Shown piece by piece: positions 12,273 through 13,998 of a stretch of DNA of 25,532 bases. The notes below the pieces were generated by a model. It ran no database searches and had not been told where the DNA came from. It saw nothing but the letters and a program-made list of their open reading frames with translations. The translations under genes were made by a program, and so were the position numbers. Position 1 is the stretch's first letter; each line of letters begins with the position of its first letter. Source of the stretch: a virus; IMG/VR virus record IMGVR_UViG_3300039412_000775, positions 1 through 25,532 of that record; one strand, 5' to 3'.

Positions 12273-12430
12273 GTAGAGTGACTGTTGGCTCGGAGCTTGG
12301 ACCTGAGAAGTTCGCCCAGAAGGAGATTGAACGGTCAGTGTGTTGCGGATTCGTTAAGGGTACGGTGTTACCGGCGGGCGATCCCCCTCAGCTTCCCAGA
12401 TGGCGACTTAACCGGCGCACGTCTACGGGT

Positions 12431-12448
12431 CGGGCGTAATAACGCCCG
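12431..12448. other. Short hairpin (7-bp stem, 4-base loop)
   Basis: CGGGCGT-AATA-ACGCCCG is a perfect inverted repeat, extendable by a T-G wobble and one G-C pair. No T-tract follows on either strand, so it is not a typical intrinsic terminator. It could affect mRNA processing or stability ahead of the tape measure gene, or be chance in GC-rich DNA. Confidence 0.45.
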
Positions 12449-12498
12449 GCTGAGCGGAAGGCATCAGCCCGGCGAGCTGCCCAGGCGGCGGTGGCGAA

Positions 12499-12530
12499 AG
12501 AAGGCAAAGGGATAAGAAGGCAAAGGGATA
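12499..12530. repeat. Perfect 16-bp tandem duplication
   Basis: The unit AGAAGGCAAAGGGATA occurs twice with no spacer (12499-12514 and 12515-12530). It is purine-rich and AT-richer than its surroundings and lies 40 bases upstream of the plus-strand ORF at 12571. It may be a slippage duplication, or a pair of binding sites for a regulator. No sequence match to a known operator is claimed. Confidence 0.7.
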
Positions 12531-12570
12531 GACGGTCACATCGTGCCACGGTGGTAGAATCAGTTCAACT

Positions 12571-12876
12571 ATGAGCCCCGACGAGCAGGATGCCGCAGTC
12601 CTTTGAATCGTAAAAGACCGCGCCGAAGCCAAACGGCGACGCGCGCTCTTGGAGAGCGAACTCCAAGCCGCAGGCAAAGCCCTGCATGTAATCTCCGAGG
12701 CCCTTCCCTTGCTGGGATCACCCGTCGTGAACATACCTGTTCTACTGAAACTGATCGCTGAGAATGCAGCGCTGCTCGCACCGTCGAAGCTGGCCCAAAT
12801 GATGCAGGAATACGCGGACCTTTCCGCCCAGATCGCAGATCTGGACGCAAGCGCCAAAGCGGCCGGGATCGACTGA
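12571..12876 (+). pseudogene. Small helical ORF interrupted by an in-frame TGA
   Basis: ATG at 12571 opens a frame that meets TGA at 12604-12606 after 11 codons. The same frame then runs open for 89 codons to a stop at 12874-12876. The downstream part is protein-like: charged helix ('KDRAEAKRRRALLESELQ'), then hydrophobic helical segments and an acidic end. A CGA-to-TGA transition would explain the break and would restore a 101-aa protein. An alternative is initiation at TTG 12649, giving 75 aa, but no ribosome binding site precedes it. TAGAAT at 12555-12560 could be a -10 element, with no clear -35. Orientation is opposite to all surrounding phage genes. Function unknown. Confidence 0.45.
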
Positions 12877-12889
12877 AATCAAGAGACGT

Positions 12890-13042
12890 TCAACGTACTT
12901 TCCAGGAACTGACGCCGCACTGGTCACGGATAGCGGGCCAGTTGGCCGAAATGTCGTCCCGGACTTGTGCCGCTTGAGGTCCCCAGTCGGCGTTGTGGGA
13001 AATGGCTCCGGCCTGCTCGCCCAGCGTTTCGGCATAGCCGCC
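12890..13042 (-). other. Open reading frame continuing past the GT stop codon
   Basis: After the TGA that ends the GT frame (13045-13043), the same frame stays open for 50 sense codons to a TGA at 12892-12890. The product would begin GGYAETLGEQ and end ANWPAIRDQC-GVSSWKVR, and looks protein-like. There is no ATG, GTG or TTG in it, so it cannot be an ordinary gene. It may be the end of a once longer GT protein cut by a nonsense change, a readthrough extension, or chance. Functional status is unclear. Confidence 0.3.
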
Positions 13043-13998
13043 TCAGGTAGGCTCTTTGCCTCTCCATGAGGGCGACTTTTCCCGGTCCAGCACGTCCCGT
13101 TCTTCCGCGATGATCAGCATCGCGGCCATCTCATCCGCCCGAATATCGCCGAGGGAGATTTGCACTCCCAGTTTCAGCGCGCACATGAGGTCGAGCGCGC
13201 GCCGGATTACCAGCCCCTTCTCCGATGCTTGGGCGGCGTCGAGCCGGTCATGGGGACAGTGGTCGCATCGGCCGCCGTCATCGGGAGAGTCGGGGCAGAG
13301 GCCGGGATCGCACAGTTCCTCGCGCCGCATGGCCCAATGCACCAGGAACCTGAACGAGGGATCCGCCGGCCAATCCCCGGCTAGAAATTTGCGTCGCGAT
13401 CCTCTGCGAACGCATTGTCCATCGCGTCGATGGCGGCCTTCACCGCCACCGCCTGGTGGATGATCGGAACGTCGCCAGCGTAGCCCTCGGTGGAGACGAC
13501 GAGTTTCTTATAGAGCACGCCAGCCGGGCTGATGTTGATGGTGAGTTCCTGCTTGCCGAAGGGGAGGTCGAGCACCCGCGCGAAGCCGCGCCGGTAATCG
13601 AAGACGTCCTTCGCCGAGGGCATGTTCAGAACGTGGGCGGTCGAACCGCCCAGGACCCGCGTGGTGATGCGGAAAGAGTCCCCCTCGGACACCACGTCGT
13701 CCACCTCGGATGTGGACAATTGCTCGACCACCTTGACCGCTTCGAACGCGTCAATGTCCGGCGCCGGATCGGAACGGATCTTGGCGACCAGCGCGGCATC
13801 CACGTCCTCGCCGTTGCCGACGATGGTTTCGGAGATGCCGCGCCCTAGCTGCTTGATAACGACCTTGCGGCGACGCTGGCGTTCAATCCATTCATCGTCG
13901 GAAGGAAAGCGGACGCGGACGGTCTTCACGCCGCCCGGCGCCCGCAGATTGACCGCGATCGGTCTGCTTGCATCAAACACTACAGCAGTCTGTTCCAT
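13043..13998 (-). CDS. Tail assembly chaperone GT, made by -1 frameshift from G
   Basis: The extended product joins the 205-aa G protein (13998-13381) to a 113-residue extension read in the -1 frame (13384-13043), about 318 aa in total. No start codon is needed for the extension: its frame is open from before the G stop, and the heptamer AAATTTC sits directly before that stop. In lambda the same arrangement makes gpG and gpGT in a fixed ratio; the T part contacts tail tube subunits and G binds the tape measure protein. The extension contains C230-x4-C235-x9-C245-x2-C248, a possible metal site, followed by a helical part ('LVIRRALDLMCALKLGV') that ends in an acidic helix and a basic tail. Confidence 0.82.
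13381..13998 (-). CDS. Tail assembly chaperone G
   Basis: 205 aa from ATG at 13998 with AAGGAG eight bases before it; the frame extends further upstream as an ORF, but that part is a shadow of the major tail protein gene. The protein is acidic and mixed alpha/beta, with an N-terminal segment 'RFPSDDEWIERQRRRKVVIK' and a central 'DDVVSEGDSFRITTRVLGG' region. It is identified mainly by position between the major tail protein and tape measure genes and by the frameshift site at its 3' end. The unextended form would predominate and coat the tape measure protein during tail assembly, as in lambda. Confidence 0.8.
   Translation of the reverse strand: MEQTAVVFDASRPIAVNLRAPGGVKTVRVRFPSDDEWIERQRRRKVVIKQLGRGISETIVGNGEDVDAALVAKIRSDPAPDIDAFEAVKVVEQLSTSEVDDVVSEGDSFRITTRVLGGSTAHVLNMPSAKDVFDYRRGFARVLDLPFGKQELTINISPAGVLYKKLVVSTEGYAGDVPIIHQAVAVKAAIDAMDNAFAEDRDANF
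13384..13390 (-). promoter_or_regulatory. -1 ribosomal frameshift slippery site AAATTTC
   Basis: Read on the minus strand, the zero frame is GCA-AAT-TTC-TAG. The heptamer A-AAT-TTC fits X-XXY-YYZ, so slippage by one base re-pairs as AAA-TTT and continues CTA-GCC-GGG into the open GT frame. The G stop codon follows at once. The sequence just downstream is GC-rich (GCCGGGGATTGGCCGGC) and could fold to stimulate pausing. No bench evidence exists here. Confidence 0.85.

Follow-up and report, generated by a model that had tools for sequence, protein, structure and literature searches.

The locus analyzed here raises the question of whether two overlapping frames of a phage genome are expressed as one short protein and as a longer fusion obtained by a -1 ribosomal frameshift, as it occurs for the G and GT proteins of phage lambda, and, if so, what might help the ribosome to slip. 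The window, i.e., the whole stretch of 25,532 nucleotides that was analyzed, corresponds to a 25.5-kb IMG/VR virus record in which the genes around the slip site lie on the minus strand. The comparison with profile libraries recognized a terminase, a portal, a head protein with protease, a lambda J-like tail protein and a cement/decoration protein, a gene set from which it can be assumed that the phage is a tailed, lambda-like one. The features of the locus are reported in Table 1.

Table 1. Position of the features surrounding the putative G/GT frameshift site in the window.
Feature	Position	Strand	Basis or remark
Major-tail-protein-like ORF (V position), 347 aa	14007..15050	-	Synteny: homolog upstream of G in 117/124 loci
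G-like ORF, 205 aa, putative tail assembly chaperone, zero-frame product	13381..13998	-	ORF; homologs with 48-95% identity; predicted fold, pLDDT 89
Weak Shine-Dalgarno-like AGAGG, 10 nt upstream of the heptamer	13401..13405	-	Family-wide anti-SD pairing peak here
Slippery heptamer A_AAT_TTC, containing the tetramer T_TTC	13384..13390	-	Sequence; third-base A of the preceding codon kept in 122/123 relatives
Zero-frame stop TAG, immediately 3' of the heptamer	13381..13383	-	Sequence; adjacency in 89/124 junctions
T-like extension, -1 frame, 113 codons + stop, with four invariant cysteines (CX4CX9CX2C)	13043..13384	-	dN/dS 0.12-0.2
Predicted G-T junction peptide: NF-LAGDWPADPSFR			
T-frame GTG (13342-13340) and ATG (13330-13328), possible internal starts, unconserved	13328..13342	-	
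Insert of ~770 bp between T and the tape-measure gene	12273..13042	.	Absent from close relatives
Tape-measure-like ORF, 1172 aa	8754..12272	-	Position, length; homolog downstream of T in 110/124 loci

In the window, the G-like frame ends with D-A-N-F-stop (GAC GCA AAT TTC TAG), with the heptamer AAATTTC sitting in the X_XXY_YYZ phase of canonical -1 signals, while the -1 frame reads AAA TTT CTA GCC GGG GAT TGG (LAGDW...) and continues up to a TGA at 13045-13043. The arrangement described in the earlier note, that is, an AAATTTC in phase at the G stop codon followed by a 113-residue extension in the -1 frame, is borne out, coordinates included. In-phase XXXYYYZ strings are rare, since only 10 of them exist in the 6,175 codons of the genes of the window (0.16% per codon), so that the presence of one of them exactly before a given stop codon is unlikely by chance. 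The 113-codon opening alone is weak evidence, 29% of the positions of this GC-rich window being equally open; on the sequences compared, chance is excluded by the comparative evidence rather than by the length of the opening.

This comparison was based on about 200 loci, fetched from phage contigs and Acidobacteriota MAGs through searches with G and T, and including the viral loci L002-L168 (some contigs were retrieved twice) together with 39 loci from bacterial genomes. The latter are almost exclusively MAGs labelled as Acidobacteriota (Bryobacterales, Solibacter, Terriglobia), and among them there is the nearly complete genome of Bryobacterales bacterium F-183 (L187). One contig labelled as Planctomycetaceae (L169, PLYM01000158.1) carries a T 80% identical to that of the window; since all the other genome matches are labelled as Acidobacteriota or as a lineage within it, the label of this bin may be wrong. 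The collapsing of the loci gave 127 distinct junctions, in 124 of which the slip site could be placed; L084, L151 and L201, whose stop or T match is off the standard layout, were set aside.

In 125 of the 127 distinct junctions, which come from many metagenomes and MAGs, the T frame is -1 relative to G. In the two exceptions (L151 and L201) the T match begins in another frame, L201 nonetheless having a standard CCCAAAC-TGA junction. According to the earlier note, relatives with the two frames joined without a shift would have contradicted the frameshift, and none of the junctions examined, L151 and L201 aside, is organized in this way. The neighbourhood is also shared, in that the gene order V - G/T - tape measure was counted in 105 out of 124 loci. 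The two overlapping frames are embedded, as in lambda-type loci, between a major tail gene and a tape-measure gene, whose identity is assigned through position and length; neither of these two flanking ORFs matches any family in the profile libraries.

The T sequences share 53-91% identity with that of the window, and the dN/dS values calculated for the relatives (0.12-0.2) indicate that T is under purifying selection. The four cysteines are invariant in 58 T sequences (T corresponding to 13046-13384 on the minus strand of the window), which suggests a likely metal-binding site in the T domain, at a motif where the predicted T model is uncertain. It might be argued that T is an untranslated stretch, or that the shift is an assembly error or the mark of a pseudogene, an idea with which the lack of a label for both G and T in the libraries and the abundance of equally long openings in the window would be in agreement. 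However, neither the low dN/dS, nor the invariant cysteines, nor the recurrence of the same -1 layout in 125 of the 127 junctions fits such a scenario, which we regard as scarcely credible and as refuted in practice by the comparison.

The comparison of related phages, which the earlier note had recommended, was also informative for the slip site itself. An in-phase XXXYYYZ heptamer (CCCAAAC, AAATTTT, AAATTTC or GGGAAAC) is kept at the end of G in 103 of the 124 junctions. The other 21, mostly with AAGTTTT, do not possess a full XXXYYYZ and, taken to the letter, they are the heptamer-lacking relatives that the earlier note considered adverse to its proposal; yet T_TTY is present at the same place in all of them. 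In E. coli this tetramer is known as a slip motif of lower strength; there, U_UUC and U_UUU are slippery in the presence of a stimulator, and the R_RR.U_UU.Y heptamers have been singled out as shift-prone in spite of their mixed bases (PMC4066793). The codon preceding the AAN/AGT codon almost invariably has an A as its third base (Table 1), while encoding Pro, Ala, Gly, Val, Thr or Glu. CCA accounts for 5.8% of the Pro codons in G but for 68 out of 68 at the slip site, and GCA for 9% of the Ala codons in G but for 42 out of 43 at the slip site. Within this set of sequences, it is the nucleotides of the slip site that are conserved, despite the codon bias and even where the encoded amino acids change. 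On a G tree built without the last 14 residues of G, the type of site (AAATTTY, CCCAAAC, GGGAAAC or T_TTY alone) changed at least 12 times. In L007 and L078 the heptamer is directly bounded by the -1-frame stop at its 5' end and by the G stop at its 3' end, so that the change of frame is possible only on the seven bases left between the two stops; in L025 T_TTT, with TAG next to it, is the sole Z_ZZN tetramer of the stretch delimited by these two stops. In the clade embedding L006, L177, L179, L008, L175 and L176, 4 to 8 extra zero-frame codons separate the slip site from the G stop; they increased the distance of both the stop and the T core from the slip site without altering the -1 frame.

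The possibility that T is a separate protein, synthesized by re-initiation or internal initiation without any fusion, concerns its start codons. The earlier note stated that the extension has no start codon of its own, which is not strictly true, because in the window the -1 frame holds the GTG at 13342 and the ATG at 13330, both preceded by weak SD-like pairing (-3.7 and -5.1 kcal/mol, respectively). These codons are not conserved in the family, and most relatives do not have an early T start: 111 of the 122 relatives are devoid of start codons from the -1-frame stop to the conserved Trp, and in 66 of the 122 no ATG, GTG or TTG is found up to 14 codons past this Trp. Moreover, the G-E-W-P residues, which are located upstream of the candidate starts, are among the most conserved of T, and a separate T would leave the conservation of the slip nucleotides unexplained. 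On this basis, independent initiation seems to us very improbable. As to the idea that ORF callers would miss or misannotate the extension, they could list a truncated T of 99 aa from an internal start. Stop-codon readthrough was also rejected, the conserved extension being in the -1 and not in the zero frame, and transcriptional slippage is not favoured, the site having no long homopolymer.

We are confident that the locus represents a lambda-type tail assembly chaperone pair, formed by G and by a GT produced through a -1 slip on A_AAT_TTC; the lambda-like G/GT pair proposed in the earlier note is strongly supported by the comparison of 124-127 distinct junctions. Starting from the observed frames, from the observed synteny and from the observed conservation of T and of the slip site, we infer the slip itself, its efficiency and the assembly roles of the two products as follows. 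Most ribosomes would read G and halt at TAG, whereas a minority of them would slip by -1 on A_AAT_TTC, the tRNA on AAT re-pairing with AAA and the tRNA-Phe on TTC with TTT; the slipped ribosomes would then read CTA and go on through 113 codons, giving rise to a GT fusion of 318 aa. On the model of lambda, the role of G would be to coat the tape-measure protein and that of the T part, with its likely metal-binding Cys4 motif, to recruit the major tail protein, while the efficiency of the slip would set the G:GT ratio. Throughout the family, the slip is probably aided by the upstream SD-like stretch, and in the CCCAAAC/GGGAAAC class probably also by a hairpin starting about 8 nt downstream.

Concerning the upstream element, the family shows its strongest pairing with the 16S tail at 7-10 nt from the heptamer, close to the distance of 9-14 nt between the SD-like stretch and the shift site that has been reported for -1 sites (PMC5009743). 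The mean pairing energy of the family is -8.0 kcal/mol versus -5.8 kcal/mol for synonymous recoding, a figure that is inflated by the relatedness of the sequences. The pairing of the window itself (-5.8 versus -5.3 kcal/mol for synonymous recoding) is no better than its codons predict.

Concerning the downstream one, exactly 8 nt separate the heptamer from the Gly codon opening the hairpin arm in all 68 CCCAAAC/GGGAAAC junctions, both when the stop abuts the heptamer and when it lies one codon later. The minimum free energy of this hairpin is -18.3 kcal/mol versus -11.9 kcal/mol for synonymous recodings, and 84% of the cells pair versus at most 61% for slid versions. In 6 of the 68 junctions a G-C pair is turned into C-G through two synonymous third positions, the overall covariation being modest. 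RNAalifold detected no consensus structure when all 113 junctions were folded together, and just a weak one (-1.9 kcal/mol) for 32 junctions of the CCCAAAC/GGGAAAC class; hence, the case for the hairpin rests mainly on its spacing and on its stability relative to synonymous recoding, the spread of these nulls being too narrow owing to the relatedness of the sequences. A stem-loop at about 5-9 nt downstream is found in this class and not in the window, where no stable hairpin was detected and where the 61 bases starting with the stop form a less stable fold than their shuffled versions (z = +1.07); the hairpin is not kept in the clade of the window either, and the Rfam search around the site gave nothing meaningful. 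Downstream structures are common, but not obligatory, in bacterial -1 signals.

A remaining question concerns the stop codon, which, together with the GC-rich DNA following it, had been proposed in the earlier note as the stimulator of the slip. Besides the junctions in which it abuts the slip site (Table 1), the G stop lies one codon later in 29 and 4 or 8 codons later in 6 of the 124 junctions; its adjacency is a frequent feature of this family and not a requirement. When a stop was placed right after the slippery site in published E. coli and HIV reporter tests, -1 frameshifting was lowered, and added release factor lowered it further (PMC4373837). A stimulatory role of the stop is unlikely, since the CCCAAAC/GGGAAAC class fixes the 8 nt to the hairpin whereas the distance of the stop varies; this proposal, which also runs against the poor folding of the region downstream of the stop in the window, was not upheld. 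The simplest reading is that the stop is just the end of the zero-frame protein.

A different role might be envisaged for a slip taking place once translocation has brought the stop into the A site, by E/P or P-site slippage on T_TTY-TAG; the competition with the release factor would then set the G:GT ratio, and the adjacent stop would be functional. Post-translocational slippage has been proposed for E. coli ribosomes whose next codon is a stop (PMC4373837, citing earlier work), and the finding that the stop directly follows the slip site in 89 junctions would be in agreement with it, as would its abutting in 18 out of the 21 relatives that lost A_AAT (AAGTTTT and similar) and the T_TTT-TAG of L025. 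However, one codon lies between site and stop in 29 junctions and more in 6, T_TTT occurs without an adjacent stop in L008, L175 and L176, the stop lowered frameshifting in reporters (PMC4373837), and T_TTT and T_TTC are slippery in E. coli even without a stop (PMC4066793). We consider such a mechanism unlikely, a tuning of the ratio by release-factor competition being least improbable in the T_TTT clade. Even more doubtful is the idea that in the AAATTTY/T_TTT clade the slip takes place with the stop in the A site and that the supply of release factor 1, rather than an RNA structure, tunes the amount of GT; if true, this would be the -1 counterpart of the release-factor-2 frameshift.

As for the relationship of the predicted G/GT pair with known systems, G and T do not belong to any PHROGs, Pfam or NCBIfam family and have nothing significant among solved structures; no match was obtained by Blast of G, V and the junction DNA against 50,697 phage records, nor at E <= 0.001 by fold searches of the predicted G and T models. 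The only match of the G fold search labelled as tail assembly (rank 6, probability 0.82) was phage Mu gp41/FS-gp41, which is not significant and too weak to be used (E = 0.041, TM-score 0.25); according to its record, Mu uses a -2 shift, unlike the -1 of the window. Since no sequence or fold homology to known G/T was found, the pair is classed by analogy of layout and mechanism and, both proteins being without a family label, their copies have probably been annotated as hypothetical proteins or only in part. The likeness to lambda includes the order major tail gene - G - T (-1 frame) - tape measure, the heptamer near the G end and, in the close relatives of the window phage, the tape-measure start overlapping the end of T; the T domain of lambda connects the tape measure and the tail protein (PMC5009743). 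The differences are the heptamer (AAATTTC instead of GGGAAAG), the stop directly following it (15 nt later in lambda G), the absence of sequence or significant fold similarity to a known family and the Cys4 motif in T. The -1 signal of E. coli dnaX has a similar SD-like stretch, 8-10 nt upstream, and a downstream hairpin, which is present here in part of the family; unlike this locus, dnaX is a cellular gene, and the SD-like stretch here goes only partly beyond the codon effect. A stop as the codon next to a slippery heptamer is also found in RNA viruses (PMC4373837), a likeness of arrangement only, given the eukaryotic ribosomes and the unrelated genes.

The -1 frameshift arrangement of the sequences analyzed is real and conserved and very probably functional; it belongs to a known kind, the lambda-type GT, and occurs in proteins that had no family label before. 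It would reveal that a large group of soil Acidobacteriota phages has a tail-assembly fusion gene hidden so far. The more than 120 junctions represent a natural mutagenesis series, with four types of slip site, stop distances of 0, 1, 4 or 8 codons and one class with a constant hairpin spacing, and they make the effect of an adjacent stop on bacterial -1 slippage directly testable.

Lastly, the boundary separating T from the tape-measure gene is a hotspot of insertion. In the close relatives the T stop is overlapped by the tape-measure ATG, while inserts of 0.3-2.3 kb interrupt this junction in the window and in at least 12 other loci (L172, L191, L087, L072, L055, L187, L170, L185, L182, L038, L080 and L115). 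The insert of the window contains an antisense frame (12571-12876, plus strand) with no family match, which from the ATG at 12571 meets an apparent in-frame TGA after 11 codons and is open from 12649 to 12876; a small gene that has decayed, or that was misread, may be the explanation. The inserts often hold antisense genes, such as HicB with a weak HicA-like match, PIN with an AF2212-like gene, and DUF6883.
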